Both the position numbers and the translations under genes were made by a program. 64,000 nucleotides of DNA from Gemmatimonadota bacterium (lineage in GTDB: Bacteria; Gemmatimonadota; Gemmatimonadetes; Gemmatimonadales; Gemmatimonadaceae), in assembly GCA_028287235.1 (NCBI GenBank), contig JAQBQB010000026.1:186001-250000 (forward strand), written 5' to 3'. Below the pieces are notes generated by a model, which was not told the origin of the DNA, searched no databases, and worked only from the letters and a program-made list of their open reading frames with translations. This document shows, one piece after another, positions 18,318 to 53,264 of the stretch (position 1 is its first letter; every line of letters starts with the position of its first letter).

Positions 18318-19316
18318 ATGAAGAAGATCTTGATTACCGGGGCGGACGGATTTATCGGCTCGCATCTCACGGAGGCCTTGGTGCGTGCCGGATACGACGT
18401 CCGCGCCTTCGTCCTCTACAATTCGTTCAATTCCTGGGGATGGCTGGACCAGTGTAGCGACGATGTGACGGGAAAGTTCGAGGTCTTTCCGGGCGACATC
18501 AGGGATTCGAACGGAGTGCGCACCGCCGCGAAGGGATGTGACGCTGTGCTCCACCTCGCCGCCCTGATTGCGATTCCTTATTCGTATCACTCGCCGGACA
18601 CCTACATCGACACGAACGTCAAAGGGACGTTGAATGTCGTTCAAGCCGCGCGCGATCTGGGGCTCACGAAAGTGGTGCACACTTCCACGAGCGAGGTCTA
18701 CGGCACCGCACGGTTCGTTCCGATCACCGAGGAGCATCCGCTGCAGGGCCAGTCGCCGTATTCGGCAAGCAAGATCGGCGCAGACCAGATCGCACTGTCG
18801 TTTCACGCGTCATTCGGAACGCCAGTCGCGGTGCTTCGGCCGTTCAATACCTACGGTCCTCGTCAATCGGCGAGGGCGGTGATTCCGACCATCATTACGC
18901 AAATCGCCAACGGAGTGCGGCAGATCAAGCTCGGCGCTGTGCGCCCGACCCGTGATTTCAACTACGTGGCGGATACCGTGACTGGATTTCTCGCAGCGCT
19001 CGAATCGGACCGCTGTGTCGGCGAAGTTGTTAATCTTGGGAGCAACTTCGAGATTTCCATCGGCGACACGGCGAAGCTCATCGCGGATGTCATGGGCATC
19101 GATATCGAGATTCTCACGGACGAGGAACGCCTGCGCCCTGAGGGCAGCGAGGTCTACCGACTCTGGGCATCGAATTGCAAAGCCCGGGAGCTGCTCGGCT
19201 GGGAGCCGCGTTACGCAGGCGTCGAGGGCCTTCGCCGCGGGCTGACTGAAACGGTCGAGTGGTTCAGCAAGCCCGCGAACCTCGCGCCGTACAAATCGGC
19301 CATCTACAACCGGTGA
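18318..19316 (+). CDS. legB: LegB-like NAD-dependent 4,6-dehydratase (legionaminic-acid-type pathway)
   Basis: A 332-aa extended SDR with ILITGADGFIGSHLTEAL (about 4-22), STSEVYGTARFVPITEEHP and YSASK (about 147), then RPFNTYGPRQSARAVIPT. The IPYSYHSPDTYIDTNVKGTLNV segment and the immediate LegC-like neighbour are diagnostic of LegB. LegB dehydrates GDP- (or UDP-) GlcNAc to the 4-keto-6-deoxy sugar, the first committed step to legionaminic acid. Its stop overlaps the GTG of legC. Confidence 0.88.
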   Translation: MKKILITGADGFIGSHLTEALVRAGYDVRAFVLYNSFNSWGWLDQCSDDVTGKFEVFPGDIRDSNGVRTAAKGCDAVLHLAALIAIPYSYHSPDTYIDTNVKGTLNVVQAARDLGLTKVVHTSTSEVYGTARFVPITEEHPLQGQSPYSASKIGADQIALSFHASFGTPVAVLRPFNTYGPRQSARAVIPTIITQIANGVRQIKLGAVRPTRDFNYVADTVTGFLAALESDRCVGEVVNLGSNFEISIGDTAKLIADVMGIDIEILTDEERLRPEGSEVYRLWASNCKARELLGWEPRYAGVEGLRRGLTETVEWFSKPANLAPYKSAIYNR

Positions 19317-20491
19317 CCGGTGTGGCAAGCCAAGCTAGTCTCGCCGCTCAGGTCGTCAACGCCATTCACACGACGATCGGGTCAGGTCCGGTCGCCCTGC
19401 ACGAGCCGAGATTCGCGGGCAACGAATGGCTGTATCTGAAGGAATGCCTAGATTCGACGTACGTCTCGTCCGTTGGGCGATTCGTCGACCGGTTCGAAGC
19501 CGAGCTCGTCGAGTACACGGGGGCCAAGCATGCCATTGCTGTCGTCAACGGCACGGCGGCGCTACACGTTGCGTTACAGCTCGCCGGCGTCGAGCGCGGT
19601 GACGAAGTGCTCATCCCGGCGTTGAGCTTCATCGCGACGGCTAACGCGGTGATGTATTGTGGCGCGATTCCGCACTTTGTCGACAGTGAGGAGCGCACGC
19701 TGGGCCTGGATCCCGCCGCACTTCGACGACACCTCGAATTGATCGCAGAGCTACGCAGTGGGAAATGCGTAAACCGGGATACAGGTCGCGTCATTCGTGC
19801 TGTGGTGCCCATGCACACCTTCGGGCATCCCGTCGACATCACGGGAGTTCAGTCGGTCGCTCACGACTTTTCGCTCGTGCTGGTAGAGGACGCAGCAGAG
19901 TCGCTCGGCAGCACGATCGACGGCCGCCATGCCGGAACAATCGGCGTGATGGGAACGCTCAGTTTCAACGGCAACAAGACCGTCACGACGGGCGGCGGTG
20001 GAGCGATACTCACCAACGACCCTGCTTTGGCTAGGCGTGCCAGACATCTGACTACGACCGCCAAGGTTGCTCATCGGTGGGAGTTTCTGCACGACGAGGT
20101 AGGTTACAACTACCGCCTCCCCAATCTCAATGCGGCGCTCGGCTGCGCGCAGCTCGAGCAGTTGCCTGACTTCATCGAAGCAAAGCGGCGCTTGTTCCAC
20201 CGATACCGATCGGCGTTTTCCGAGATACCGCAGACACGCATCGTGGAAGAACCTCGCGGCTGCCGAAGTAACTACTGGCTCCAGGCGCTCCTTCTGGATG
20301 ACTCCGCCGCCGCACAGCGCGACGAGATTCTGGAAGCGACCAATGGCGCAGGATTCATGACGCGGCCGGTTTGGACGCTGGGCCATCGGCTGCAACACTT
20401 CAGCCAATGCCCGCGAATGGATCTTTCGGTTGCCGAGTCACTCGAACGCCGGGTGATTAATCTCCCTAGCAGCCCGCACCTGGTACGTTGA
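19313..20491 (+). CDS. legC: LegC-like PLP-dependent aminotransferase (DegT/DnrJ/EryC1 family)
   Basis: GTG 19313 overlaps the legB stop; GTG 19322 is an in-frame alternative. The protein is about 392 aa. It shows PLP-site features: NGTAALHVAL, VLVEDAAESLGS (Asp to the pyridine nitrogen) and FNGNKTVTTGGGGAI, with the Schiff-base Lys at about 222. The N-terminal IGSGPVALHEPRFAGNEWLYLKECLDSTYVSS is characteristic of LegC. It aminates C4 of the 4-keto-6-deoxy-GlcNAc nucleotide. Confidence 0.88.
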   Translation: MTGVASQASLAAQVVNAIHTTIGSGPVALHEPRFAGNEWLYLKECLDSTYVSSVGRFVDRFEAELVEYTGAKHAIAVVNGTAALHVALQLAGVERGDEVLIPALSFIATANAVMYCGAIPHFVDSEERTLGLDPAALRRHLELIAELRSGKCVNRDTGRVIRAVVPMHTFGHPVDITGVQSVAHDFSLVLVEDAAESLGSTIDGRHAGTIGVMGTLSFNGNKTVTTGGGGAILTNDPALARRARHLTTTAKVAHRWEFLHDEVGYNYRLPNLNAALGCAQLEQLPDFIEAKRRLFHRYRSAFSEIPQTRIVEEPRGCRSNYWLQALLLDDSAAAQRDEILEATNGAGFMTRPVWTLGHRLQHFSQCPRMDLSVAESLERRVINLPSSPHLVR

Positions 20492-21693: not shown

Positions 21694-22836
21694 TTGACGG
21701 ATGACGTCGATCCTCAGAGAGATCCGGTGACTATTCACCTCCTTCGGATGCTCGAATCGGTGAATGAACCTCCCGAAGGTGCTCGGGCCGACGTACGCTT
21801 CGACAGTAGCATTCCCGGTGCGTGCTCTGCCGCGACTCTGTCAAGCGGCCGGGCCGCGATCGCCCATCTGCTGCGCAGGCTCGGACTCGAACCTCGAGAC
21901 GCTGTTCTCCTTCCCAGCTTTGTCGCTGAGGGAGTGATCCAGCCAGTCCGAAGCCTGGGCCTCGAGATGCGATTCTATAGGCTGCGGCGCGATCTCACCC
22001 CTGACTTGGAAGACCTGACTCGAGTCGGAAATATTGATCCGCCAGCCGGGCTCGCGATCGTGATTCACCCATTCGGTTATGAAGCTCCAGTCGAGGCTAT
22101 TCGCGGCGTCCTTGAATCTCGCGGAACTCGCGTGCTCGAGGACTGCGCGCAAGCGCTGTTCCAGCGTGACACACATGGCGACTTCACGCTTTACTCGTTC
22201 AACAAGTTTTTGCCGGTCGCCGATGGGGCGGTCCTGTTGAGCCATACGCGTGAGGTCGACGTTACACTTGGGCGATCCGTCCCGCCGGCCGACGAGCGTG
22301 CCATCGAGCATTACCGAGAACATCTTCGACTCAACGGACAGCTGTTCCGATCTGCGTCTAGCTCGGAGGCTAGTCGATTGCTCCTCCGAACCGGCGAGAG
22401 TTACAATCGATATTACCAGTGTTTGAACGATGATATCTCCCCGAGAAGCCCGAGTCTGTTCTCTCGTCGCGTACTTGGAATGCTCAACCTCGCCGAGATC
22501 CGAGACAAGAGACGACTGAATGCTCGATATGTATATGAGAATTTGAAGAGTCCGGCATTCGAACTGCTCTTTGACGAGCTTCCCGATGGTTCAACCCTTT
22601 TCTGTATTCCCGCGCTCGTGGAGCGCGATCGCAGGGAGCACATTTTAGATCAGCTCATGACTCGGGGCACCTTGCTCGGCACCCTGCTAGACAGGTGGAA
22701 CTTCATTCCTGCTGGACAGGAAACGTGGTTCAAGAACGAGGTTGATTTCATGGCTCGGAATGTGTTGATCCCGATCAATGAGTTCTTAGATGAACAGGCG
22801 ATGGAAAGGCTCGTATGCGAACTAAACCGCATTTAG
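21694..22836 (+). CDS. DegT/DnrJ-like PLP fold protein of unknown role
   Basis: TTG 21694; 380 aa. Residues in place of the usual aminotransferase motifs are SGRAAIAHLLRRLGL (phosphate-binding helix), VLEDCAQALF (pyridine Asp) and LYSFNKFLPVADGAVLL (candidate Schiff-base Lys). It is strongly divergent from LegC next door. It resembles the N-terminal part of the 44873-47032 fusion, which reads LIEDAAHVL and LYSPHKHLPIPDGAVLV at the same places. It sits between neuC and neuB, so it may act on the nonulosonate precursor. Aminotransferase activity is likely but unproven. Confidence 0.75.
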   Translation: MTDDVDPQRDPVTIHLLRMLESVNEPPEGARADVRFDSSIPGACSAATLSSGRAAIAHLLRRLGLEPRDAVLLPSFVAEGVIQPVRSLGLEMRFYRLRRDLTPDLEDLTRVGNIDPPAGLAIVIHPFGYEAPVEAIRGVLESRGTRVLEDCAQALFQRDTHGDFTLYSFNKFLPVADGAVLLSHTREVDVTLGRSVPPADERAIEHYREHLRLNGQLFRSASSSEASRLLLRTGESYNRYYQCLNDDISPRSPSLFSRRVLGMLNLAEIRDKRRLNARYVYENLKSPAFELLFDELPDGSTLFCIPALVERDRREHILDQLMTRGTLLGTLLDRWNFIPAGQETWFKNEVDFMARNVLIPINEFLDEQAMERLVCELNRI

Positions 22837-23912: not shown

Positions 23913-24574
23913 TGGCGTTCGACGAGCATTGGGAAGACGTTTTTCGGAGGAGAACCTGGGGGCGATACCCGTCTGAGGAACTCGTGCGCCTGCTTCTTCC
24001 CCGGTTCCCGGACACGGAGAAGCGAAAAAACAGCCGCATTCTCGATCTTGGTTGCGGCGGCGGGGCCAACGCCTGGTTCCTTGCCCGAGAGGGGTTTGAC
24101 ACTTATGGCATTGACGGTAGCCCGTCGGCGATTGGGCAAGCGGAGCAACTGCTCGGACGTGAGGGCTGCAAGGCAACGCTAGCAATTGGAGATTTCGTCG
24201 TCCTCAAGTATCCCGACGCGAGCTTCGACGCTATCGTCGATGCCAATGCAATCCAGCACAACACGTGGGCTGACATCACGCGATGCCATGCCGAGATCCG
24301 ACGCGTTCTCAAGCCGGGCGGATATTTTTTTGGGATGCTACTCAATGACGAATCGTCCGGTGCCGACACCGCGGAGATAGTCGAACTCAATACATATCGC
24401 GGCTTCAAGAGAGGCCCCGTTGGAGCGGATCTTCTCGCTCATCTGTTCACGCGTGTTGAGGTCGACCGCCTCTTCCGAGGCTATGAAGAGTTGCAAGTCG
24501 AGCGCCTAGTGCGAACGATGAACGGCGGTGCGGACCAAGCAGGGCATTTCATCGTCGTCGCGAAAAAGGCTTGA
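23912..24574 (+). CDS. Class I SAM methyltransferase
   Basis: ATG 23912 (TGATG overlap with neuB); 220 aa. Motif I is ILDLGCGGGANAWFLAREGF (about 43), then GIDGSPSAI, FDAIVDANAIQHN and an RVLKPGGYFFGML post-motif. It is a compact methyltransferase of the Methyltransf_11/25 type. Position between neuB and the FemAB-like gene suggests O- or N-methylation of the nonulosonate or of an acyl substituent, as known for legionaminic acid derivatives (inference). Confidence 0.85.
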   Translation: MAFDEHWEDVFRRRTWGRYPSEELVRLLLPRFPDTEKRKNSRILDLGCGGGANAWFLAREGFDTYGIDGSPSAIGQAEQLLGREGCKATLAIGDFVVLKYPDASFDAIVDANAIQHNTWADITRCHAEIRRVLKPGGYFFGMLLNDESSGADTAEIVELNTYRGFKRGPVGADLLAHLFTRVEVDRLFRGYEELQVERLVRTMNGGADQAGHFIVVAKKA

Positions 24575-24597
24575 GCGGGGCATCGGATGGAATTTCC

Positions 24598-25659
24598 ATG
24601 ACCCAACGCGGGCGGTGGCTAAAGGCCTCGGATCCGCTTGACTGCGACCAATGGAGGAAGCTTCTGTCACGCTTCCCGAACGAGGCGCGGGACATTTATT
24701 TCTTCCCCGAGTACGTCGCACTATACGAAGAAGATGGCGCGAAAGGGACGTGCTTTTCGTATGAGGTCGGCGAGGCCGTGTTTCTTTATCCGTTCCTTAT
24801 TCAGCCGATCGCGAAACATCCCGGCAAGTTCGACATAACCACGCCGTACGGCTATGGCGGACCAATCTCGAATTCAACAGACGCATCGTTCGTGCAGGCT
24901 GCCTTCGCGGCATTCTCTTACGAAGCGCTTCAGCGTGGAATTGTGGCGGAGCTTATCAAGTTTCACCCTCTATTGGGCAATCATCGACTGGCGGAGTTTG
25001 GTTTCGAGGGGCATGTCCAAGACATATCTCGAACGGTTTATGTCGACATCGAACAGGATGAAACTCATCGATGGGAGAAGATTTACACTCACTCCAATCG
25101 AAAGAACATCCAGAAATCAAGGCGGGCGGGCATCACCGTCCGCTTTGGACATGAGCCCAGTGCGTGGAATGCGTACCGGCAGCTCTATAGCGAAACGATG
25201 CAAAAGAATCAGGCGCAGGCATCATACTATTTCAGCGAAGAGTACTATCACGCAATTCGAACAACGCTACCGGCAAACCATATCCTCGCTTACGCGATCC
25301 TCGATGGCAGAATCGTCTCGGTCTTGCTCCTCCTGCTCGGCAGCGAGGATGCGCATTGCCATTTGATCGGAACCGACCGCGAAGTAATGTCCCTCGGAGT
25401 CAATAACCTCGTTCATCACCAGGTCATTTCATGGTGCAAGGACAATGACTACAAACGCCTCCATATTGGCGGCGGACGCAGCCCTTCGCCTGACGACAGC
25501 CTTTACCGATTCAAGGCCAACTTCTCGGACATCTCAGTTCCATTTCACGTTGGCGAGCGCATTCTCGATCAACCGCTCTACCGCCGTCTTTGTGATGAGT
25601 GGACCGATCTCAACCCCGAAAAGGAATTGAGTCACCGGTTGCTCAAGTACCGGTACTGA
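24598..25659 (+). CDS. FemAB-like/GNAT-fold peptidyl- or acyltransferase
   Basis: ATG 24598 gives 353 aa; TTG 24571 overlapping the previous stop is an alternative. The two-GNAT architecture of FemAB-like proteins shows HSNRKNIQKSRRAGITVRFG in the middle, then FSEEYYHAIRTTLPANHILAYAILDGRIVSVLLLLL and the C-terminal YKRLHIGGGRSPSPDDSLYRFKANFS. This family transfers amino acids or acyl groups onto amines. The nonulosonate pathway here lacks a LegH acetyltransferase, so this enzyme is a candidate for N-acylation (inference). A homologous domain is fused to a DegT-like domain at 44873. Confidence 0.78.
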   Translation: MTQRGRWLKASDPLDCDQWRKLLSRFPNEARDIYFFPEYVALYEEDGAKGTCFSYEVGEAVFLYPFLIQPIAKHPGKFDITTPYGYGGPISNSTDASFVQAAFAAFSYEALQRGIVAELIKFHPLLGNHRLAEFGFEGHVQDISRTVYVDIEQDETHRWEKIYTHSNRKNIQKSRRAGITVRFGHEPSAWNAYRQLYSETMQKNQAQASYYFSEEYYHAIRTTLPANHILAYAILDGRIVSVLLLLLGSEDAHCHLIGTDREVMSLGVNNLVHHQVISWCKDNDYKRLHIGGGRSPSPDDSLYRFKANFSDISVPFHVGERILDQPLYRRLCDEWTDLNPEKELSHRLLKYRY

Positions 25660-34228: not shown

Positions 34229-34957
34229 ATGACCGCGCCCAATCGATTTGCGGGCAGGAAGGTGGTCGTCACTGGCGCCTCGCGTGGTATCGGGCGCGCG
34301 ATTGCGACTGCCTTTCGTGGCGAGGGCGCGTGGGTGATCGGCACGCGATCCGGGATTGGCGACAGTGCCAACGACGTGTGCCAGGAATGGATACGCGCTG
34401 ACTTTCTGGATGTCGACCAGATCGACGCATGCGCTGCACGGGTGGGCGTGGCAGAACCCGATGTGCTCATCAACAACGCAGGGATCAACAAGATCGCTCC
34501 CTTTGTTCAAATCGCGGCGGCCGACTTTCTGTCGATCCATCGCGTCAACGTGCTTGCTCCGTTCTTGCTCTGCCAAGCCGTGCTCCCAGCAATGGCGCGC
34601 CGAGGCTGGGGTCGGATCGTAAACGTGTCGTCCATCTGGGGGAAAATCAGCAAAGCGCAGCGTGCTTCGTACTCGGCAAGCAAGTTCGCACTGGACGGCA
34701 TGACGGTGGCTCTGGCGGCAGAGCATACCGTCGATGGGATCCTCGCCAATTGCATCGCACCCGGTTTCGTCGACACCGAGCTCACTCACCAGGTGCTCGG
34801 GAAGGCGGGGATCGAGCGGATGGTGAGTGCGGTACCTGCCGGCCGACTTGCCCAGGTCGATGAGATCACCCGGCTCGTGCTATGGCTTGCGAGCGAAGAG
34901 AATACCTTCGTTGCGGGTCAGAACATCGCGATCGACGGTGGATTCACTCGTGTCTGA
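34229..34957 (+). CDS. Classical SDR oxidoreductase (FabG-like)
   Basis: ATG 34229; 242 aa. It has VVVTGASRGIGRAIA (TGxxxGxG), LINNAGINKIAPF, NVSSIWGKISKAQRASYSASKFAL (catalytic Ser, Tyr, Lys) and GQNIAIDGGFTRV at the C-terminus. It is a full-length classical NAD(P)-dependent reductase. Fatty-acid synthesis is unlikely here; a keto-sugar or keto-cyclitol reductase fits the neighbourhood (inference). Confidence 0.86.
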   Translation: MTAPNRFAGRKVVVTGASRGIGRAIATAFRGEGAWVIGTRSGIGDSANDVCQEWIRADFLDVDQIDACAARVGVAEPDVLINNAGINKIAPFVQIAAADFLSIHRVNVLAPFLLCQAVLPAMARRGWGRIVNVSSIWGKISKAQRASYSASKFALDGMTVALAAEHTVDGILANCIAPGFVDTELTHQVLGKAGIERMVSAVPAGRLAQVDEITRLVLWLASEENTFVAGQNIAIDGGFTRV

Positions 34958-36020: not shown

Positions 36021-36949
36021 ACGACACATCCCGAGTGGCGATCTGTTCGCGTTCATTCTCCAAGCATCCCGCGTTGCGAGCTCGCCTCCTCGAGCGTTAC
36101 CGTCACGTGACGTTCAACGATGCAGGCATCTCCCTGAGCGGAGACGAGCTCGTCGACTTTCTTCGCGGCCACGACCGGGCAATCACGGCTCTCGAGGTGA
36201 TCGACGCAACGATCCTCGAACGTCTGCCGGAGCTCGCCGTGATCAGCAAGTATGGCGTCGGCCTCGACATGATCGACATGGCGGCGATGCGCCTGCACGG
36301 AACACGTCTCGGATGGACGCCAGGCGTGAATCGCCGCTCGGTTGCCGAGCTGGCATTGGCGTTTGCGATCGTCATGTTGCGGCGTGTACCGGCCGCCAAT
36401 CGAGACGTGCTTGCCGGCGGCTGGCGCCAATACGTTGGTGGTTGTCTGTCCGGACGCACCGTCGGTATCATCGGCTGCGGGCATGTCGGGAAGGACCTGG
36501 TCACGTTACTCAAGCCATTCGGCTGCCCGGTCATCGCCTATGACATTCGGGACTATCGGGATTTCTACACCGCGCACGGCGTCGAGCCTGTGAGTCTCAC
36601 GACGTTGCTGACCACGGCCGACGTCGTGACTCTGCATGTGCCGCTGGACCATAGTACGCGCGGCATATTGGACGCGCAGCGGCTCGCGATGTTGAAGCCA
36701 ACCGCCGTGTTGATCAACACCGCGCGAGGTGATCTCGTCGAGGAAACGGCACTTAAGCACATGTTGCTCGACGGGCGTATTGCGGGGGCTGCGTTCGATG
36801 TGTTTGCGAACGAGCCGCCGCACGATGCCGAATTGCTCGCGGCACCCAATTTTCTGGCGACGCCACACATCGGCGGCAGCGCTGAAGAGGCCATACTCGC
36901 CATGGGGCTGGCGGCGATCGACGGTCTCGACAACAACGAAGTTCCTTGA
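36017..36949 (+). CDS. D-isomer-specific 2-hydroxyacid dehydrogenase
   Basis: ATG 36017 (ATGA overlap) gives 310 aa. It has SKYGVGLDMIDM, the NAD loop GIIGCGHVGKDLV (about 158), LINTARGDLVEE (catalytic Arg), FANEPP (Glu) and TPHIGGSAEEA (His). It reduces a 2-oxo acid or oxidises a 2-hydroxy acid. In a cassette with an aldolase that makes 2-oxo acids and a cyclase, a carboxylated intermediate is the expected substrate. Its stop overlaps the TTG of the next gene. Confidence 0.87.
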   Translation: MNDTSRVAICSRSFSKHPALRARLLERYRHVTFNDAGISLSGDELVDFLRGHDRAITALEVIDATILERLPELAVISKYGVGLDMIDMAAMRLHGTRLGWTPGVNRRSVAELALAFAIVMLRRVPAANRDVLAGGWRQYVGGCLSGRTVGIIGCGHVGKDLVTLLKPFGCPVIAYDIRDYRDFYTAHGVEPVSLTTLLTTADVVTLHVPLDHSTRGILDAQRLAMLKPTAVLINTARGDLVEETALKHMLLDGRIAGAAFDVFANEPPHDAELLAAPNFLATPHIGGSAEEAILAMGLAAIDGLDNNEVP

Positions 36950-38850: not shown

Positions 38851-40664
38851 CTTCGGAAGTGTCGAATTATCTGCGGCGCTGCCGGCGGCCAGCATTCGCC
38901 CTTCGGGCCGTGGGAGCATTTGCTGCTCGAGCTTTCAGGTCCGCGACGCGTCGGCTAGTTCCACAAAGTCGGAAGTATTTTCAACCACCTGCCGTCTGCC
39001 GGCTCCGGAGCGAATTTCTCAGTCCGGACGCAGTGGAGCCGGCTGTGCCTCCCAGTGCCGATCCCGATACGGGTATGCTGACGCTCACGGCGGCGCGTAT
39101 CGTGGTTAACGCCGATGCCACGTGGTCTGAGACCTTCGCGGACGAAGAGACCGGTGCCTCGCTCCACCGCTGGAATTGGTTGTTGCGAGGGCTGACTGAT
39201 GACCCCATACCCCTAAGCCGCCAGCAGGGACTCGCGCTGATGCGGTCGTGGATTCGAAACTGCTCGTCACGGCCGAGCCTCACCACGGATGCGTACTCCA
39301 CAGGCGAGCGTATCGTCAACGGCACCTTGTTCCTGATGTTGACTGGGGACGGTACGATTCCTCGAGACATCACCGAAGCGATGGCGTGGATGGCTCGCGA
39401 CGTGGCCACGAACGTGGAGTACCATCGCCCGGAACAGACCGGCAATCATGCGCTGAACAACGCCCGCGCACTGTTGTTCGCTGGCCTGATTGCCGGCGCA
39501 CCGGCGGCCGTTGACCTTGCATACGCGATTTGTGACGAGCGCCTCCCTACGCTCGTAACGCCGGACGGCTTCATGCGCGAGGGCAGCAGCCATTACCATT
39601 TTCTGTTCACGCGATGGGTGCTGGAGATGTTGTGGATCGCGAAGCGCGGAGTGAACGACGCGTTTGTGCGCTTGCTGGCGCCCTACGCAGAGCGGCTCGT
39701 GCGCCAGTGCTGGTTCTTTCTCGTGTCCGACAAGAATCGAGGCGACTGGACGATTCCGCTGTTTGGCGACGTGTCCCCCGATTTTCCGCCGTCGTGGTTG
39801 ATCGGGTTACCATGGTCATCGCTGGCGTGTGACGTGTACCGGCCCGATCGTCTTTCGATTGGGCCGCTGGCGTCCGGATGGGAATGCCTCTTTGGAGCGG
39901 TCACGGGAACGGGCTCTCCCGAGCCGCGACACGATTCGTTCGTCAGTCCGAGCGGATGGTGCCGTGCAGACGCACATGGTTGGACGGTGTTCAGTCGTGC
40001 AAGCTCGAGCGATGGAGCGCTCATGGCTGGCCACTTCCACCGCGACCTCGGCGGCATTGTCGTCTTTCACGACGGAGCGCCGCTCATCACCGATGTCGGG
40101 CGCTCGGACTACACGAACTCCCCCATTAGCCGGTACGGAATTTCGGCGTGTGCGCACAGCACTATTTTACTGGATGGACTTGGTGCCGCCGCCGATGATG
40201 CGACTTGGATGAGCGGCGCCTATCGCGCAGTTCAGGCGACGATCGACGTGGGTGGAGACAAAGGGCAAACTTTGATCACGCTGACTCACAACGGATTTAC
40301 TCGATTCGCGGGCAGCGTTGGACTCCACGAGCGGCGAATTCGACTCGGTCCCGCTGAGCTGACGGTGGAGGACCGCATTGCCGGGAACGGCAGGCACGAG
40401 GCCTGTCTCCGCTTTCACTTTGCGCCTGGGATCGAATTGCGTAATCGCCCGGAGAACGGTTGGACAGTGGGCGAAACTGGTCTACAGTTTCGCACGGGAA
40501 AGCTCCCAAATGTTCTCATTCAATCCGGATGCGCTGAGCCGCCGCACGGCGGGCTCTTTTTCCCCGAGTACGGTCTCGAGCAGGCGTGTCAGACGTTGGA
40601 CTTGTCTGGGTCGGTGAGGCTTCCTGTGATGCTGACACATTCGCTGACATTAGAGAATATATAA
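38847..40664 (+). CDS. Heparinase II/III-family protein (alginate-lyase-like)
   Basis: ATG 38847 overlaps the previous stop; 605 aa. The N-terminal (alpha/alpha) toroid shows TGNHALNNARALLFAGLIAG and REGSSHYHFLFTRWVLEM. The beta-sandwich part shows MAGHFHRDLGGIVVFHDGAPLITDVGRSDYTN, which is the HADxG...GxPlxxDxG motif of the family. Related proteins lie in many exopolysaccharide loci together with an asparagine-synthase homologue, as here. No cleavable signal peptide is obvious (MTSEVSNYLRRCRR start), so the cellular site is uncertain. It may trim or modify uronate- or ulosonate-containing glycan. Confidence 0.82.
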   Translation: MTSEVSNYLRRCRRPAFALRAVGAFAARAFRSATRRLVPQSRKYFQPPAVCRLRSEFLSPDAVEPAVPPSADPDTGMLTLTAARIVVNADATWSETFADEETGASLHRWNWLLRGLTDDPIPLSRQQGLALMRSWIRNCSSRPSLTTDAYSTGERIVNGTLFLMLTGDGTIPRDITEAMAWMARDVATNVEYHRPEQTGNHALNNARALLFAGLIAGAPAAVDLAYAICDERLPTLVTPDGFMREGSSHYHFLFTRWVLEMLWIAKRGVNDAFVRLLAPYAERLVRQCWFFLVSDKNRGDWTIPLFGDVSPDFPPSWLIGLPWSSLACDVYRPDRLSIGPLASGWECLFGAVTGTGSPEPRHDSFVSPSGWCRADAHGWTVFSRASSSDGALMAGHFHRDLGGIVVFHDGAPLITDVGRSDYTNSPISRYGISACAHSTILLDGLGAAADDATWMSGAYRAVQATIDVGGDKGQTLITLTHNGFTRFAGSVGLHERRIRLGPAELTVEDRIAGNGRHEACLRFHFAPGIELRNRPENGWTVGETGLQFRTGKLPNVLIQSGCAEPPHGGLFFPEYGLEQACQTLDLSGSVRLPVMLTHSLTLENI

Positions 40665-42514
40665 TGTGCGGCATTGCGGGCATTGTGGCGTTCGACGGAC
40701 GTACTGTCGCGAAGGCAGAGTTAGCTGCTATGACCGATCGCATGATCCAGCGCGGTCCCGACGACGACGGATTCATGGTGGCTGGGCCAGTTGGCCTCGG
40801 AATGCGGCGCCTCTCCATCATTGACGTGGCTGGAGGCCACCAGCCACTGACGAACGAGACTGGCGACCTTCATCTCGTACTCAACGGCGAGATCTACAAC
40901 CACCTCGAGCTTCGTCAGCAGCTCATCGGCCGGGGCCATATATTTCGGACCGCCAGCGACGCCGAGGTGGTCTTGCATTTGTACGAAGAAGAAGGCGTCA
41001 AGGCGTTGGCGAGCCTGAACGGCATGTTCGCGTTTGCCCTGTTCGATGCGCGTCGCGGCTCTGTTTGGGTTGCGCGCGATCGCCTCGGGATCAAGCCGCT
41101 CTACTACGCCCTCGCCAACGATCGCGTCGTATTCGCTTCGGACATTACAGCCCTTCGGAGCGCCTATCCCACCGACGTCGTTCCCGAGCAGCTGCTCAAG
41201 TATCTCGCTCTGAGCTATGTCCCGGGCGTCGAGACTATTTGGCGCGGAGTCCACAAGTTGCCGCCTGCACACTATCTCCTCGTCGAGAGCGGCAAGGTTA
41301 CCACGCACCGCTATTGGGCCGTTGGATGTATGGGCACGTGGCGCGGCACGGAAGCGGATGCCGCACGCCAGCTCGAAGAGTTGCTTCATGACGCGATCCG
41401 TCTCCAGCTGAGGAGCGATGTGCCGCTGGGAGTCTTTCTCAGCGGGGGCCTCGATAGCTCGACCATCGTCGCTCTTGCTGCCGATCAAGTGGCTGAGCCG
41501 CTCCGCACGTTCACCGTGCGATTCGAGGGCAAGGTGTCCGGCGACGAGGGTTTTGCACGGCGCATCGCCACGCAATACGGTACTACGCACGCCGAGATTT
41601 CAATGGGCAGGGAGGATGCTGGTACCGCACTCGACGAACTGCTTTCTCGTATGGATGAGCCGCTCTCCGATTCGGCGCTGTTACCGGCGTATTGGCTGTC
41701 GAAGGCAGCACGTGCGCAGGGAATTAAGGTTCTCTTAAACGGTGCTGGCGGTGACGAGATCTTTGGCGGTTATCGCAGGCATTGGCGCCCGAAAGTCGGA
41801 AGTCCGACGTGGGTTGCCGAGAGCCTGCCGAATCCATTGCGCCGGCTCGTTGCCAGTGCATGGTCTCTGTTGCAGCCAGATCGTGCCGCCCGCGCGATCG
41901 ATCCGGCACTAGCATGGGCTACCGGTGTCTCCGGAGTCAATCTTTACACGATACGGCACGTGTTGAGAGAGCCGGATGACTATCGTGCGCTGGTTCGAGC
42001 GGCGCGCGTCGAGTATCAGCCTGTTGCGGATGCCGGCGCCACTTCGGAGTATGCTCGCGCACGCATGCATCTCGATCTTGAGACGTACTTGCCGGACGAC
42101 GTTCTGTCATTGACTGACAAGGCGACGATGGCGGCGTCCGTAGAAGGGCGCGTACCGTTTCTCGACCATCGGTTGGTCGAGTTTGCCTTTTCACTGCCGT
42201 CCGAAATCAATCTCGCCGGCGGGCAGCCGAAGGGTCTATTGAAGCGGTGCATGCAGGGGCGTCTCCCGCGAGACCTTCTTACACGGTCAAAGGAAGGATT
42301 CAACGCACCGGACGAGATCTGGTTGCAGAACGACCGTGGGATGAACTTGACCGATGAGCTTCTCGAAAATCGTTCGCGTGTTCTCGACAGGCTTATCGAC
42401 CCCGTGGCGCTCGAACGCACTTTGGCAAGTCCGGAACGCCGGCGTCGGTCTGCCGCGACACTGTTCGCGCTCTTCCTGTTCAATCGTTGGTACCGTGCGC
42501 ACGCGTCGGACTGA
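40664..42514 (+). CDS. asnB: Asparagine-synthase-family glutamine amidotransferase
   Basis: ATG 40664 (TAATG overlap); 616 aa. Cys2 is the glutaminase nucleophile (MCGIAGIVAFDG), with RGPDDDG and LNGEIYN following. The synthetase half carries the PP-loop FLSGGLDSSTIVAL (about 262) and LLNGAGGDEIFGGYRRH. It is full length and all key residues are present. In polysaccharide loci such proteins probably amidate a sugar carboxyl group (WbpS-like), which would suit uronic or ulosonic residues; asparagine synthesis itself is the alternative. Confidence 0.88.
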   Translation: MCGIAGIVAFDGRTVAKAELAAMTDRMIQRGPDDDGFMVAGPVGLGMRRLSIIDVAGGHQPLTNETGDLHLVLNGEIYNHLELRQQLIGRGHIFRTASDAEVVLHLYEEEGVKALASLNGMFAFALFDARRGSVWVARDRLGIKPLYYALANDRVVFASDITALRSAYPTDVVPEQLLKYLALSYVPGVETIWRGVHKLPPAHYLLVESGKVTTHRYWAVGCMGTWRGTEADAARQLEELLHDAIRLQLRSDVPLGVFLSGGLDSSTIVALAADQVAEPLRTFTVRFEGKVSGDEGFARRIATQYGTTHAEISMGREDAGTALDELLSRMDEPLSDSALLPAYWLSKAARAQGIKVLLNGAGGDEIFGGYRRHWRPKVGSPTWVAESLPNPLRRLVASAWSLLQPDRAARAIDPALAWATGVSGVNLYTIRHVLREPDDYRALVRAARVEYQPVADAGATSEYARARMHLDLETYLPDDVLSLTDKATMAASVEGRVPFLDHRLVEFAFSLPSEINLAGGQPKGLLKRCMQGRLPRDLLTRSKEGFNAPDEIWLQNDRGMNLTDELLENRSRVLDRLIDPVALERTLASPERRRRSAATLFALFLFNRWYRAHASD

Positions 42515-43951: not shown

Positions 43952-44827
43952 GTGACCTCGTTTCATCATCGCGTCCTCGGTTGGGCGTCGCATTCACTCA
44001 ACGCCGCCAAACTCATTGGACGGCCGCTGGGCCTTGCGCATGTGGATCAACTTCGAGTCCTCATCTACCACGACGTTCCCCCGCAGGATGAGTCGAGGAT
44101 GGCCACTCAGCTGCGGGCGCTGTCGCGCACGTGGAAGTTCGTATCGCCGGACCGATTCGCGGCCATGATTTCAGGAGCCGAGCACGTTCGCGGCCGGAAT
44201 TTGTTGCTGACCTTCGATGATGGATTCGCCTCGCAGCGTGGCGTCGCGGACCGAGTACTCGCACCAATGGGCATCAGCGCAATCTTCTTTGTGATCTCTG
44301 ATTTTGTCGCGCTACAAACCCTTCATGACGCTCGGGAGTTCGTCGCGCGAAACATCCAACCGGGTGCACGTGCCGAGTCTCTGCCGTCGCACCTTTCCAA
44401 CATGGACTGGTCGGACCTCGAGTTCCTCTTGGATCAGGGGCATTGTATTGGCGGGCACACGAAGACGCACGCAAGGCTGTCCGGAATAGAGACTAGCAAG
44501 ACGCTCGAGCAAGAAATCGCCGGCAGTGCGGACACCCTCGAGCAGCGACTGGGAACACACATCGCGCACTTCGCTTATCCATTTGGTGACGTCGCGAGCT
44601 TTGGCGCCGACGCAATGGCGGTCGCGCGTGAGCGCTTCCGATTCGTCTACTCGGGGCTGCGCGGGGAGAACTCTCGCGGCGGCGCGACGCCGGCCAGCAT
44701 TCGGCGCGATGCCGTTTCGCCGCGAGATACCAATGCTCTCGTGAATGCTTACGTCGAGGGAATCGCCGATTGGCGATATCGTCGCTCGCGTGTCCAACTT
44801 TCAGAATGGGCGTCGAACGACGCCTAA
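43952..44827 (+). CDS. Polysaccharide deacetylase (NodB/CE4-like)
   Basis: GTG 43952, 3 nt after the polymerase stop; 291 aa. The NodB homology motifs are LLTFDDGFASQRG (catalytic Asp-Asp, about 86), IGGHTKTHARLS (metal His pair, about 166) and FAYPFGDV. There is no obvious signal peptide, so it may act on a cytoplasmic sugar nucleotide or lipid-linked sugar. It could N-deacetylate a HexNAc residue before re-acylation by the FemAB-like enzymes (inference). Confidence 0.86.
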   Translation: MTSFHHRVLGWASHSLNAAKLIGRPLGLAHVDQLRVLIYHDVPPQDESRMATQLRALSRTWKFVSPDRFAAMISGAEHVRGRNLLLTFDDGFASQRGVADRVLAPMGISAIFFVISDFVALQTLHDAREFVARNIQPGARAESLPSHLSNMDWSDLEFLLDQGHCIGGHTKTHARLSGIETSKTLEQEIAGSADTLEQRLGTHIAHFAYPFGDVASFGADAMAVARERFRFVYSGLRGENSRGGATPASIRRDAVSPRDTNALVNAYVEGIADWRYRRSRVQLSEWASNDA

Positions 44828-44872: not shown

Positions 44873-47032
44873 TTGTTGTTGACCCAAGCTCCGATGCCTT
44901 CCTGGGGCGAATTGTTCGGCGGTCTATCGCGCACACCTCCGTCTGATTCTCAGCTCGTACGGCCATGGCATGACAAGGGGGAAACTGCCGGTTGCCTTTC
45001 TCGCTCGGCTTGGTCGCTCGCGCTGATCGCTTTGTGGAGGAAAGGTGATAATCCGGCGGCGCTGGTCTCGGTGTGGATCCCCGACTATTTCTGCAATTCT
45101 TCGCTCGAGCCGCTGCGTCGAACTGGAGCGCGGATCGTATTCTATCCGCTGACAGAACAGCTAGCGCCTGATATGTCGGCAATCCGCGTCCTTGCTGCGG
45201 ACAACGTGCCAGATCTCTTTCTGGCGGTGCATTACTTCGGGCGACCTACGCCAATGGCGCCGCTTCGTGATTTCTGTGGCGGTCGTGGCACTTGGTTGAT
45301 CGAGGACGCAGCTCACGTCTTGCGTCCGGGTCACGGGATCGGCGCGAATGGCGATTTCGTCCTATACAGTCCGCACAAGCATTTGCCGATTCCTGACGGC
45401 GCCGTGTTAGTCGCGCGTCGGGGAGGTCCGGCCGGATTGAGCGACCGTGATTTCGTTGCTATGGGCTCACCGAGAACTTGGCCGAGCCAGCTCGCCGCTT
45501 TGGATCGGGTAGTGGGTTCGCGCCGGATTTGGGGAAACAGCAGCACGGTGTGGCTCGTGAAGCGAGTTTTGCAGAAACTTGGCGTGCGGCGGAGCGTTGC
45601 CCTGACTCCCGTAGCGGAAGAATCGAGCAGCGATTCAGCAACTCTCATGGCGTTGCCGACGCCGGCCCAAAGCGCACTGTCGCGGCGCCTGTTGGCGCGA
45701 CTGATTCCCGACCTTGGCGATGTCGCGCGCCAGCGCCAGCGACACCAGTTGCTGTGGGACGACATTCTCCTGACGGGTGACCCACGATCACCTGAAAGTC
45801 CGGCGGCCGCGGAGCGCCCCGCGCGCCGAGACTGGACGCCGTACCTGGCTTCGTATCAGGTGCCTCCCGCAGTGGCTGAAACGGTCAATGAGGCATGGCA
45901 GCACCGAGGACTTCCCGTTACGACCTGGCCCGATCTTCCACCGGAGGTCACGGCCGATAAAGAACGCCATGCTCGGGCCTGGCGTCTGCGACATAGTCGG
46001 CTGTATCTGCCGGTGCATCAGACTCTACGTGCGCGCGGCATCTTGAAACAGGTTGGTTCTCGCCGGCTCCAGCGAGACGACGACGCATCTCTCACTTTGA
46101 TTTGGGACGGCGCGTCGCGATCTCAGTGGCACGCTTGGCTAATGCAAACGGAGCCATCGACCGTTCTGCAAACCTGGGCGTATGGCGAAGCGAAGGCGGA
46201 ACACTCTGGTTGGAAGGTGAAACGAGGCGTCTTCTATCATGGCAACGAGCCAGTGGCGTTTGCACAGGTATTGGAGCGACGTGTGGCCGCATTCGCCCGC
46301 GTCGTCCGCATCAACGGAGGTCCACTGTTCGTTCGAACGGCGCCTCCTTCGCAGCAGCACGCCGTCTGGCAGGAATTGGCCCGTTTAGGGAATCTTGGAC
46401 GCGGGCGCGTACTCTCTGTCGCGCCGGGACTGCGCTTGTCAGGCTCCTCATTGGCTGTCATGGCGGAGATGAACTTTCGCCGATTCTCACGTGACAGTTG
46501 GGAGTCGGCGAGCGTGGATCTAGGACTCGATCTGGACGTGCTGCGCAGGAAACTGAATGGGAAGTGGCGCAACATGCTAACGGTCGCAGAGCGAAGTGGT
46601 TTGACAATTGAGGTCGGCGACAGCGACGAATTGTTTGACTGGATGATGAATCGGTATGAGCAATTGATGCATGAGGCGGACTTCCGTGGAATGTCCATTG
46701 AATTCCTACGGACGTGGCGCAAACACACCGGTGCTGCGGACCGGTTCCAAATCCTCCGTGCTGTCCACGACGGCGAGGCCGTCGCCGGAGTGTGCCTGGC
46801 ACGCCACGGTCTTGGTGCGACCTATCTGCTCGGGTGGAACGGAGAAAGAGGCCGCGACTTGAGGGCCAATCAGTACCTGCTGTGGCAGGCAATAGTCCAC
46901 CTGAAGCAGTCAGGTTTGGGGTGCTTCGATCTGGGCGGCATTAGCGAGGAACAGACTCCCGGCATTGCAGCTTTTAAGCTAGGATTGAACGCCGAGCGTT
47001 ATGAATTGGTCGGTGAGTACTGGAAATGGTAG
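44873..47032 (+). CDS. Fusion of DegT-like PLP-fold domain and FemAB-like acyltransferase domain
   Basis: Three TTG codons stand in a row (44873, 44876, 44879) with aaagga about 8 nt upstream; ATG 44894 is the only ATG choice. 719 aa. Residues 1 to about 385 resemble the DegT-like protein at 21694: LIEDAAHVLRPGHG and LYSPHKHLPIPDGAVLV (candidate PLP Lys). From about 405 a FemAB/GNAT region runs to the end: AEMNFRRFSRDSWESASVDL, NGKWRNMLTVAERSGLTIEV and LGGISEEQTPGIAAFKLGLN. I read the two activities as acting in sequence on one amino sugar: amination, then N-acylation (inference). Confidence 0.78.
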   Translation: MLLTQAPMPSWGELFGGLSRTPPSDSQLVRPWHDKGETAGCLSRSAWSLALIALWRKGDNPAALVSVWIPDYFCNSSLEPLRRTGARIVFYPLTEQLAPDMSAIRVLAADNVPDLFLAVHYFGRPTPMAPLRDFCGGRGTWLIEDAAHVLRPGHGIGANGDFVLYSPHKHLPIPDGAVLVARRGGPAGLSDRDFVAMGSPRTWPSQLAALDRVVGSRRIWGNSSTVWLVKRVLQKLGVRRSVALTPVAEESSSDSATLMALPTPAQSALSRRLLARLIPDLGDVARQRQRHQLLWDDILLTGDPRSPESPAAAERPARRDWTPYLASYQVPPAVAETVNEAWQHRGLPVTTWPDLPPEVTADKERHARAWRLRHSRLYLPVHQTLRARGILKQVGSRRLQRDDDASLTLIWDGASRSQWHAWLMQTEPSTVLQTWAYGEAKAEHSGWKVKRGVFYHGNEPVAFAQVLERRVAAFARVVRINGGPLFVRTAPPSQQHAVWQELARLGNLGRGRVLSVAPGLRLSGSSLAVMAEMNFRRFSRDSWESASVDLGLDLDVLRRKLNGKWRNMLTVAERSGLTIEVGDSDELFDWMMNRYEQLMHEADFRGMSIEFLRTWRKHTGAADRFQILRAVHDGEAVAGVCLARHGLGATYLLGWNGERGRDLRANQYLLWQAIVHLKQSGLGCFDLGGISEEQTPGIAAFKLGLNAERYELVGEYWKW

Positions 47033-49858: not shown

Positions 49859-49951
49859 TCGCCGTTCGTGGGCAGGTCGACGAGAGCTCGGCGCGCGCCA
49901 GCCGGTCGCCAGAATGCAGAGCATGGGATCTTGAGCCGTGGGAGCCTATCA

Positions 49952-50983
49952 ATGTTTGACAACAAGAAATTGATGATTACGGGAGGCACCGGCTCGTTCG
50001 GCCGCGCGGTGCTCAACCGTTTTCTCGACACTGATGTTGAAGAGATTCGCATCTTCAGCCGCGATGAGAAAAAGCAGGACGACATGCGGAAGTATTATCG
50101 TAGCCCGAAGCTCAAGTTCTACATTGGAGACGTGCGCGACCGACGCAGTCTCACGGCGGCCTTTCGGTCGGTCGACTATTGCTTCCATGCTGCGGCGCTG
50201 AAGCAAGTTCCATCGTGCGAGTTCCACCCGATGGAGGCCGTACGAACGAATATTCTCGGGACTGAAAACGTGATCGAGGCTGCCGTCGCCGCGGGAGTCA
50301 ACCGTCTCGTGTGCTTGAGCACGGACAAGGCCGTGTATCCGATCAACGCTATGGGCATCTCCAAGGCGATGATGGAGAAAGTGATGGTTGCTGCCTCGCG
50401 GAGCTTGGATCAGAGTGGTACGGTCATCTGCGGGACACGTTATGGCAACGTGATGGCATCCCGCGGCTCAGTGATTCCCCTGTTTGTCGAGCAGATCAGT
50501 ACCGGCCGACCAATGACAGTCACCGACCCCGCGATGACGCGCTTCATGATGACGCTGGAAGACGCGGTCGAATTGGTGATGTATGCCTTCGAGCATGGCG
50601 CCAATGGAGACATCTTCGTGCAAAAGGCGCCGGCCGCGACTCTCCAGGTCTTAACGGAAGCGATCCGCGAGGTTTTCGAGCGACCGGACCATCCGGTGCG
50701 CGAGATCGGAACGCGTCACGGCGAGAAACTCTATGAATCGCTGCTCAGCCGAGAGGAGTTGGCAGGCGCTCACGATTTAGGCAAGTACTTCCGAGTTCCG
50801 CCCGACGGGCGCGATCTGAACTATGAGAAATTTGTAGAACAGGGAGAGGGAAGCATTACATCGTCTCCCGATTACAATTCGCATAACACACGTCATCTCG
50901 ATGTGGAGGAAATGAAGGCAATGTTGCGCGACCTGCCGTTCATTCAACGCGCCGTGCGCGGCGAGAACGTTGAGGCCTTTTGA
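49952..50983 (+). CDS. fnlA: UDP-GlcNAc 4,6-dehydratase/5-epimerase (FnlA/CapE/WbjB-like)
   Basis: ATG 49952 is preferred; 343 aa. It has LMITGGTGSFGRAVLNRFL, AAALKQVPSCEFHP and STDKAVYPINAMGISKAMMEK, in which Met replaces Tyr of YxxxK, as normal in this SMK-triad family. RYGNVMASRGSVIPLF follows. It begins the UDP-L-FucNAc pathway, and the two next genes complete it. It is preceded by about 90 nt without a gene. Confidence 0.9.
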   Translation: MFDNKKLMITGGTGSFGRAVLNRFLDTDVEEIRIFSRDEKKQDDMRKYYRSPKLKFYIGDVRDRRSLTAAFRSVDYCFHAAALKQVPSCEFHPMEAVRTNILGTENVIEAAVAAGVNRLVCLSTDKAVYPINAMGISKAMMEKVMVAASRSLDQSGTVICGTRYGNVMASRGSVIPLFVEQISTGRPMTVTDPAMTRFMMTLEDAVELVMYAFEHGANGDIFVQKAPAATLQVLTEAIREVFERPDHPVREIGTRHGEKLYESLLSREELAGAHDLGKYFRVPPDGRDLNYEKFVEQGEGSITSSPDYNSHNTRHLDVEEMKAMLRDLPFIQRAVRGENVEAF

Positions 50984-50991
50984 AGGACGCG

Positions 50992-52104
50992 ATGAAAATT
51001 GTCGTGACAGGCGGAGGCGGCTTCATTGGCCGCAATCTTCGCGTAGGTCTGTACGAACTCGGCTATCAAAATGTGGTGAGCATCGAGCGGTCGACGGGTG
51101 TCGAAGACCTGCGCGCGGAGTTGGCAAGCGCAGACTTTGTCTTTCACCTTGCCGGTGTGAATCGCCCCGAAAACGTTTCCGACTTCGACGCGGGAAATCG
51201 TGTCTTCACCGCCATGCTTTGCGATGTGCTACGCTCGTCGGGGCGAAAAGCCGCGTTGGTCTACACGTCCTCCACGCAGGCACTGCTCGATAACCCGTAC
51301 GGCATGAGTAAACGAGGCGGTGAGCTCGAAGTGGAGCGCTATGCATCGGACACGGGCGCTGCTGTCTATTTGCTGCGACTACCAAACGTCTTCGGTAAAT
51401 GGTGCCGCCCCAACTATAACTCTGTAGTCGCTACGTTCTGCCATAACATCGCGCGTCGTATCCCCATTACCGTGAACGACCCGTCCGCGCAACTACGGCT
51501 TGTGTACATCGACGACGTAGTCGAGACAATGCTGCGTTTCGTTGGCCAGCCCGAGGCGCCAACCGGCGGGGTCGACGTGACGCCGGCATACGACACAACG
51601 GTCGGCGCAGTCGCGACGATGCTTCGTGAGTTCGCCGCAATCCGCGAGACAGGTATCGTGCCCCGGGTTGGTGTCGGCCTCACGCGGGTGCTATACGCTA
51701 CGTATGTCAGCTACCTTCCCCTTGATGATTTCGCGTACACGCTGACGCGGCACCTCGACGAGCGCGGCGTGTTTGTCGAGATGCTCAAGACGTCGGACAG
51801 CGGTCAGTTTTCGTTTTTTACCGCGCGCCCGGGAATCACTCGCGGTGGACACTATCACCATACCAAGAGCGAAAAATTTCTCGTGCTGAAGGGGCGTGCA
51901 CGTTTTGGCTTTCGGCACATCACGACGGGCGAAATGCACGAGGTGCTCGTGTCTGGTGATGAATCGCGCGTAGTGGAAACAGCACCAGGGTGGGCGCACG
52001 ACATCACTAATGTCGGTGATGATGAGATGATCGTAATGCTCTGGGCGAACGAAGTGTTCGATCGGAATCGCCCGGACACCATTGCGGCTGCCGTCAATCC
52101 TTGA
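50992..52104 (+). CDS. fnlB: CapF/WbjC/FnlB-like bifunctional reductase-epimerase (SDR plus cupin)
   Basis: ATG 50992 with gaagga about 4 nt upstream is preferred to TTG 50980. About 370 aa. The N-terminal SDR shows VTGGGGFIGRNLR, HLAGVNRP, TSSTQALLDNPYGMSKRGGE (YxxxK as YGMSK) and LPNVFGKWCRPNYNSVVATF. The C-terminal cupin domain (from about 270) has GGHYHHTKSEKFLVLKGRARF and PGWAHDITN. This order is diagnostic of CapF, second enzyme of UDP-L-FucNAc synthesis. Confidence 0.9.
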   Translation: MKIVVTGGGGFIGRNLRVGLYELGYQNVVSIERSTGVEDLRAELASADFVFHLAGVNRPENVSDFDAGNRVFTAMLCDVLRSSGRKAALVYTSSTQALLDNPYGMSKRGGELEVERYASDTGAAVYLLRLPNVFGKWCRPNYNSVVATFCHNIARRIPITVNDPSAQLRLVYIDDVVETMLRFVGQPEAPTGGVDVTPAYDTTVGAVATMLREFAAIRETGIVPRVGVGLTRVLYATYVSYLPLDDFAYTLTRHLDERGVFVEMLKTSDSGQFSFFTARPGITRGGHYHHTKSEKFLVLKGRARFGFRHITTGEMHEVLVSGDESRVVETAPGWAHDITNVGDDEMIVMLWANEVFDRNRPDTIAAAVNP

Positions 52105-52130
52105 GCCCTTTCTCCAAGGCATCATACGGT

Positions 52131-53264
52131 ATGAAGAAACTGAAGGTTGTCACCGTTCTCGGCACCCGGCCGGAAATCATCCGTCTCTCACGCGTGATGA
52201 CAAAGCTCGACCGGTATTGCGACCATGTGATGGTGCATACAGGACAGAATCACGACTACGAGCTCAACGAGATCTTCTTCCAGGATCTCGGCTTACGCAA
52301 GCCAGATCGTTTTCTGAATGCTGCGGGAGCTACCAGTGCCGAGACGATCGGCAAAGTCATCATTGCTGTGGATTCGATGCTTGCCGAGGTGCGGCCAGAT
52401 GCCATGCTGGTGCTCGGAGATACCAATAGTTGCATGGCGGTGATTTCGGCCAAGCGTCGCAAGGTTCCGGTGTTTCATATGGAGGCAGGCAACCGCTGCT
52501 TTGATCAGCGTGTGCCGGAAGAAATTAACCGGCGCATCGTCGATCATACGGCGGATATCAACCTTACGTACAGCAGTATTGCGCGCGAGTATCTCCTGCG
52601 AGAAGGGCTGCCTCCCGATATGGTCATCAAGACGGGTAGCCCGATGTTCGAGGTCCTTACGCACCATAGGTCGGAAATCGAACGCTCCGATGTGCTGCAA
52701 CGTCTCGGGCTTGTCGAAGGGCAATTCTTCCTCGTGAGCGCGCATCGGGAGGAGAATGTCGATACGGATGTGCCGTTCGGAAAACTCGTCACGGTGGTGA
52801 ATACCATCGCCAAGGAGTTTGGACTGCCGGTCATCGTTTCGACACACCCGCGTACACAGAAACGCGTCGACGCGACCGGCGCACGCTTCCAGGAGAATGT
52901 TCGGCTTCTCAAGCCGCTCGGATTTCGCGACTACGTCAAGCTACAACTCGCATCGAAAGCCACATTGTCAGACAGCGGAACGATCAGCGAGGAGTCATCG
53001 ATCCTGAATGTTCCCGCGCTCAACTTGCGCGAGGCGCATGAGCGACCGGAGGGCGTGGAGGAGGCCGCCGTGATGATGGTTGGTCTCGACACTGAACGCG
53101 TGCTTCAAGCGCTCACCATCCTCGCTGACCAGCCGCGCGGTGAGGATCGCCTTCTGCGCCAGGTAGCCGACTATAGTGTCCCGAATGTATCAGACAAAGT
53201 CCTCCGAATCATTCTCAGCTACACGAGCTACGTGAATCGCGTAGTGTGGCGTATGAACGGCTGA
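52131..53264 (+). CDS. fnlC: Non-hydrolysing UDP-sugar 2-epimerase (CapG/WbjD/FnlC-like, WecB family)
   Basis: ATG 52131 is preferred; TTG 52101 overlaps the capF stop. 377 aa. It shows VLGTRPEIIRLS, HTGQNHDYELNEIFF, VLGDTNS, HMEAGNRCFDQRVPEEINRRIVDH, SAHREENVD and LSDSGTISEESSIL. AGNRCFDQRVPEE is typical of the FnlC/CapG branch (last step, UDP-L-FucNAc), as opposed to WecB, which has AGLRT. Confidence 0.9.
   Translation: MKKLKVVTVLGTRPEIIRLSRVMTKLDRYCDHVMVHTGQNHDYELNEIFFQDLGLRKPDRFLNAAGATSAETIGKVIIAVDSMLAEVRPDAMLVLGDTNSCMAVISAKRRKVPVFHMEAGNRCFDQRVPEEINRRIVDHTADINLTYSSIAREYLLREGLPPDMVIKTGSPMFEVLTHHRSEIERSDVLQRLGLVEGQFFLVSAHREENVDTDVPFGKLVTVVNTIAKEFGLPVIVSTHPRTQKRVDATGARFQENVRLLKPLGFRDYVKLQLASKATLSDSGTISEESSILNVPALNLREAHERPEGVEEAAVMMVGLDTERVLQALTILADQPRGEDRLLRQVADYSVPNVSDKVLRIILSYTSYVNRVVWRMNG

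Follow-up and report, generated by a model that had tools for sequence, protein, structure and literature searches.

The gene considered here lies in a window of 64,000 nucleotides, which is the whole stretch of Gemmatimonadota DNA that was analysed, and encodes a DegT-like domain followed by a FemAB-like acyltransferase domain (Table 1). Both domains fall within a single uninterrupted reading frame of 719 aa, according to the open reading frame call and its translation. The start codon is either the TTG at 44873 or the TTG at 44876, with the sequence AAAGGA just 5' of them; the second is favoured because the homologues of the protein open with M-(L/M)-T. The gene is preceded by a polysaccharide deacetylase gene and forms part of a larger glycan locus, while a separate block for the synthesis of a legionaminic-acid-type sugar is found elsewhere in the window.

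Table 1. Coordinates in the window of the fusion gene, its domains and catalytic codons, and the genes discussed with it.
Feature	Position	Strand	Remarks
Fusion gene	44873..47032	+	719 aa; DegT-like PLP domain and FemAB/GNAT domain
DegT-like domain	44873..46066	+	residues ~1-398
FemAB/GNAT domain	46067..47029	+	residues ~399-719
Lys169 codon	45377..45379	+	PLP Schiff-base lysine by alignment; motif Y-S-P-H-K
Lys702 codon	46976..46978	+	aligned with catalytic Lys305 of W. viridescens FemX
CE4-type polysaccharide deacetylase	43952..44827	+	PF01522, 50.8 bits; directly upstream of the fusion
Asparagine-synthase-like (AsnB-like) amidotransferase	40586..42514	+	relative of TIGR03108 and WbpS
FnlA-, FnlB/WbcJ- and WecB-like genes	49868..53264	+	downstream of the fusion
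Canonical LegC aminotransferase	19259..20491	+	TIGR04181, 543.6 bits (cut-off 420); PF01041, 302 bits
Divergent DegT-like gene	21694..22836	+	39.5 bits; S-x-x-K subfamily
FemAB-like acyltransferase gene	24571..25659	+	44.5 bits

The preliminary description of this DNA had read the protein as one chain carrying both folds, and the intact frame, Pfam, AlphaFold2 and Foldseek agree on this point. The N-terminal half matches DegT_DnrJ_EryC1 (PF01041; 25.6 bits, cut-off 19.8) at residues 76-175, and the C-terminal half matches both Acetyltransf_6 (PF13480; 50.7 bits) at residues 558-692 and FemAB (PF02388; 31.2 bits) at residues 636-716, all of these matches exceeding their own cut-offs. The AlphaFold2 model of the whole chain has a mean pLDDT of 85.5 and a pTM of 0.81, and the N half modelled separately reaches 86.2 and 0.89, respectively. 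When each half is compared with known structures by Foldseek, the N half retrieves sugar aminotransferase folds such as TlmJ, PseC, ArnB, perosamine synthase, and WbpE, with E values down to 3.6e-16 and target-normalised TM scores mostly between 0.6 and 0.73. The C half retrieves FemX/FemA, with FemX on top (TM 0.77 by target length). Enzymes co-crystallised with streptothrisamine are also among the Foldseek matches of the fusion.

Eight further full-length fusions of ~700 aa, 28-55% identical to the one in the window, were recovered from 84,980 species genomes. Since they come from unrelated genomes, a fusion created by chance or by an assembly artefact can be ruled out. They belong to Methylobacter, Polaromonas, Marinomonas, a Flavobacteriaceae MAG, two gammaproteobacterial MAGs, a Nitrospirota MAG, and a Prochlorococcus assembly, and thus to the phyla Pseudomonadota, Bacteroidota, Nitrospirota, and Cyanobacteriota. 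In a phylum sample, the profile of the N half finds matches at 1e-10 in 8 of 395 genomes, and among those eight only the window's own genome contains a score at the level of the fusion family. The family is therefore rare and scattered.

The constant neighbour of the fusion is the CE4-type deacetylase. Of the eight other fusion loci, seven (L022-L026, L028, L029) encode a homologue of this protein immediately before the fusion, and the eighth (L027) encodes one ~7 kb away from it; the F-D-D-G and H-x3-H motifs of the deacetylase are invariant. The AsnB-like amidotransferase upstream of the deacetylase scores 462 bits against TIGR03108, below the cut-off of 817, and has homologues in 4 of 11 related loci. 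Beside the AsnB-like gene, at 38847-40664, a heparinase II/III-like protein is encoded.

The DegT-like half conserves the residues expected of a PLP enzyme. In a profile alignment, K169 coincides with the lysine that binds PLP in QdtB and other sugar aminotransferases and, together with the PLP-N1 aspartate D145, it is invariant in all 12 N halves compared. The residues S43, H120, E144, D145, H148, K169, and G176 are invariant across both fused and split versions. The lysine and aspartate of the PLP site on which the preliminary description depended are thus present, and loss of the lysine in this half can be discarded.

Even though the fusion DegT shares the fold, the PLP lysine, and the aspartate with PseC, LegC, ArnB, and WbpE, it departs from these enzymes in sequence motifs. 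The lysine is preceded by S-x-x-K in 12/12 fused-type N halves and by the canonical S-x4-K in 10/10 canonical sequences, a two-residue deletion that the fused type has in common with the divergent DegT at 21694 and with the DegTs of loci L048-L053. The G-x-N-x-R motif is found in 7/10 canonical sequences and in none of the 12 fused-type ones. In addition, the N half reaches no more than 21 bits against the NCBIfam equivalogs for PseC, LegC, ArnB, and WecE, whose cut-offs are at least 375. A glutamate six residues after the lysine was dropped as a discriminator, as it varies within the canonical sample. These departures, as read from alignments and profiles, make an ordinary sugar aminotransferase less likely, and would be compatible with a specialised transaminase.

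The acyltransferase half resembles FemX and the aminoacyl-tRNA-dependent peptide synthases Orf11, Sba18, and Sbb17 in its double-GNAT fold and in an F-K pair that aligns with FemX Lys305. Its profile match to S. aureus FemX has an E value of 4.5e-15, and F701-K702, invariant in all FemAB halves, is aligned with F304-K305 of FemX by profile alignment. Lys305 of FemX has been reported as catalytic, and Orf11 glycylates streptothrisamine using Gly-tRNA as donor (PMC12945691). Against the TIGR03019 equivalog, which describes the FemAB protein of XrtA loci, the C half scores 19.5 bits, far below the cut-off of 260.

The two domains are not always joined in this way. The locus L032 holds a fully split version, with the deacetylase gene sitting between the FemAB and DegT genes, and L030 encodes an unfused DegT, followed after a few genes by a PF13480 GNAT and a polysaccharide deacetylase. 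One genome of the window's class contains a single 775-aa frame (L048:3641-5965) with the reverse order, showing similarity to GNAT at residues ~144-328 and to DegT at ~399-765; its N-terminus obtains a low hhalign probability against the FemAB profile, whereas a broader HMM matches it clearly (24.5 bits, 6.5e-10 for a single target). Adjacent pairs of divergent DegT and FemAB genes are found in L049-L052 and in L147, the latter being a later find outside the set used for building the profiles. In L031 and L148, both on short contigs, a FemAB gene was not detected. In L050 and L052, a divergent DegT, a FemAB, and a canonical DegT are encoded consecutively.

The preliminary description had proposed to look for such fused or adjacent pairs in other loci, and the two domains do co-occur widely, either as neighbours or fused in both orders. 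The DegT-FemAB pairing is real and general, and independent support for the coupling comes from how varied the arrangements are (fusions in the forward and in the reverse order, a split trio, and the order found in the XrtA loci described below). Trees of the three parts, which bear on the question of their co-inheritance, are poorly supported. Relatives of the FemAB half with 27-31% identity are also found on Azospirillum plasmids (L144, L145, L146), where neither a deacetylase nor a DegT is annotated nearby. The existence of these solitary homologues indicates that the DegT is not obligatory for FemAB function.

Both folds are also encoded by separate genes within the window, in the legionaminic-acid-type block at 18318-27944. 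This block encodes LegB (at 18318, above its cut-off), LegC, NeuC, NeuB, and a PtmE-like CBS/nucleotidyltransferase, together with the divergent DegT at 21694, the FemAB at 24571, and a methyltransferase at 23879; of the genes scanned in the block, none was recognised as a LegH-type acetyltransferase. The preliminary description had taken the separate genes as the unfused counterparts of the fusion. Both genes are real and the DegTs are related (36% identity over 119 aa between the 21694 protein and the N half of the fusion), but the FemAB proteins show no significant pairwise similarity and have the superfamily alone in common, and the two genes are not adjacent, with NeuB and methyltransferase genes between them. 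Fusion and separate genes are therefore not close paralogues. Given that the block has its own canonical LegC, the DegT at 21694 is not needed for amination of the nonulosonate and is an additional protein rather than the nonulosonate aminotransferase.

A second context in which a divergent DegT accompanies a FemAB protein is that of the XrtA/PEP-CTERM exopolysaccharide loci. The trio encoded in L057 corresponds to the XrtA set, with a TIGR03006 deacetylase, a TIGR03019 FemAB (both above cut-off), and then a divergent DegT, and for this reason TIGR03019 loci were sampled across the class. Such loci came from 59 of 246 genomes of the class, and 54 of them were taken with their flanks (L090-L143). 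By a strict rule, a divergent DegT on the same strand lies directly downstream of the TIGR03019 FemAB in 34 of the 54; by the same rule the remaining 20 have none directly behind FemAB, some having one slightly farther away. In the window's own genome, the locus L135 on contig C15 holds an XrtA deacetylase/FemAB pair without a DegT gene. As in the fusion loci, deacetylase and FemAB are adjacent, but in the XrtA loci the components are separate genes, the FemAB passes the TIGR03019 cut-off, and the DegTs keep the usual S-x4-K spacing. The G-x-N-x-R motif is missing in this type as well (0/34). Neither of the two XrtA DegTs scanned as examples (L110:5674-7173, L132:2551-3711) reaches any NCBIfam equivalog cut-off, so this component of the XrtA loci appears to be unnamed.

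The PLP lysine is kept in 33 of the 33 XrtA DegTs that cover the site. This finding, and the fact that lysine and aspartate do not vary among four phyla or when the DegT is a separate gene, speak against a DegT domain that serves the acyltransferase as a non-catalytic scaffold for dimerisation or substrate binding. The loss of canonical sugar aminotransferase motifs and the FemAB homologues that manage elsewhere without a DegT would fit such a role, which we nevertheless consider very unlikely.

As a control, 20 genomes, picked mainly for holding an XrtA FemAB gene, were examined for canonical DegTs (PF01041 above 300 bits; 33 proteins), divergent DegTs (50-132 bits; 21 proteins), and all PF13480 genes. 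A PF13480 gene lies no more than 1.5 kb from 17/21 divergent DegTs and from 0/33 canonical ones, a difference whose Fisher p of 1.3e-10 overstates independence, since XrtA loci are related by descent. These context statistics refer to one class, and the fusion family alone is cross-phylum.

The preliminary description had seen in the fusion two activities acting in sequence, amination of a keto sugar and then N-acylation. That the two activities belong together is borne out by the fusions and by the adjacency of the genes; that a keto sugar is aminated and the same amine then acylated is not established. An NDP-keto sugar would in that case receive an amine from the DegT half, and the FemAB half would acylate this new amine, in the manner of PseC followed by PseH. 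The fold of the N half, closest to NDP-sugar aminotransferases, its invariant lysine and aspartate, and the presence of keto-sugar-making enzymes such as FnlA in several loci agree with this sequence of reactions, with which fusion and adjacency are also compatible. However, the conserved neighbour is a deacetylase, which provides an amine with no need for transamination, and not a keto-sugar enzyme: searches with single query sequences found FnlA-, WbpB-, and UDP-sugar-dehydrogenase-like genes within 5 kb in 0/54 XrtA loci, and LegB-like SDRs in 7/54. Canonical sugar aminotransferases, moreover, do not occur near PF13480 genes in the control, the nonulosonate block is already served by LegC, and the S-x-x-K spacing and the lack of G-x-N-x-R set the domain apart. 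Amination followed by acylation of the same amine is thus rather doubtful.

Several known systems combine a deacetylase with an acyltransferase of this type. In the Wbp/Vim pathway of Porphyromonas gingivalis and Tannerella forsythia, the DegT enzyme WbpE and WbpD make a 3-N-acetylated uronic acid sugar, whose C2 position VimE is proposed to deacetylate and VimA to modify with Ser or Gly; when a vimA mutant of P. gingivalis expressed the T. forsythia vimA, Gly took the place of Ser (PMC7468200). VimA has been tied to TIGR03019, and the XrtA AsnB-like proteins and WbpS to TIGR03108 (PMC7468200). The fusion loci resemble this system in placing a CE4 deacetylase next to a FemAB-type transferase, and the Wbp/Vim pathway likewise uses an AsnB-like amidotransferase and a DegT enzyme (WbpE/PorR) to reach an amino-acid-modified sugar. 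They differ from it in that WbpE is a separate, canonical enzyme accompanied by WbpA, WbpB, and WbpD, whereas in the window a divergent DegT forms one chain with the acyltransferase, and relatives of WbpA/WbpB were not found near the fusion loci. In the holdfast of Caulobacter, the deacetylase HfsH and the FemX-like N-acyltransferase HfsK act on one polysaccharide; HfsK, unlike the fusion, is a stand-alone c-di-GMP effector, and the portion of the source consulted describes no DegT partner for the two (PMC5362036).

The data show both folds, catalytic residues that do not vary, a deacetylase partner that is conserved, and a recurrent coupling of this DegT type with FemAB-type enzymes. Building on this, the fusion is proposed, with slightly better than even confidence, to be the central enzyme of a conserved three-part cassette (deacetylase, FemAB, DegT) that edits the nitrogen substituents of an amino sugar during surface-glycan biosynthesis. 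The upstream CE4 deacetylase would first strip the N-acetyl group from the sugar, leaving a free amine. The FemAB domain would then re-acylate this amine by means of the FemX-type lysine K702, most likely with an amino acid from an aminoacyl-tRNA. That the acylated amine comes from deacetylation is the more likely option because the constant neighbour of the fusion is a polysaccharide deacetylase, as in VimE/VimA. The DegT-like domain, with PLP on K169, would act on the same sugar at some stage, and our single best guess is a specialised transaminase adding a second amine. VimE/VimA (PMC7468200), HfsH/HfsK (PMC5362036), and Orf11 (PMC12945691) serve as precedents for the cassette. Against it stand the solitary state of the FemAB homologues in Azospirillum, the 20/54 XrtA loci without a DegT directly behind FemAB, and the Wbp genes that precede VimE/VimA in Porphyromonas, relatives of which sequence searches did not find near fusion or XrtA loci.

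The PLP chemistry might instead be directed to the acyl side, for example to the alpha-amine of the amino acid placed by FemAB. This would explain both the differing DegT motifs and a DegT type that tracks FemAB and not keto-sugar enzymes, but we know of no DegT-fold enzyme acting on such an amine, and regard this role as highly improbable. More speculative than the cassette, and in our view unlikely, is that the FemAB-linked divergent DegTs of XrtA loci and fusions are not ordinary sugar aminotransferases but perform an unrecognised step in the pathway of amino-acid-modified sugars, acting after deacetylation on an aminoacylated or lipid-linked sugar.

PEP-CTERM proteins, which are sorted by exosortase, may become attached to a sugar, and one that carries an amino acid and is produced by enzymes like VimE and VimA has been suggested for this role (PMC7468200). 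While the pairing of a deacetylase with a FemAB-type enzyme is already known from VimE/VimA, the third, PLP-dependent partner is new here: it lies directly behind FemAB in most of the sampled XrtA loci and is fused to FemAB elsewhere. A literature search found no paper describing the trio of deacetylase, FemAB, and DegT. Context and motif set this DegT subgroup apart from the sugar aminotransferases whose name annotation would give it, and in vitro tests of the pathway can now start from a defined set of genes and from one fused protein.

Regarding the sugar itself, the FnlA/FnlB/WecB-like genes downstream of the fusion, a set also present in L024, L025, and L029, probably provide a UDP-L-FucNAc-type sugar, and suggest that sugars of the L-FucNAc type are involved. 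No relative of UDP-sugar dehydrogenases of the WbpA/WbpB type was found in the window using single query sequences, which distant relatives could escape, and the starting sugar is therefore probably different from that of Wbp/Vim. Further upstream in the window, at 31611-36949, an HpcH/HpaI aldolase, a Gfo/Idh oxidoreductase, a dehydroquinate-synthase-like protein, and a 2-hydroxyacid dehydrogenase are encoded consecutively, possibly constituting a pathway for an unusual sugar or polyol.
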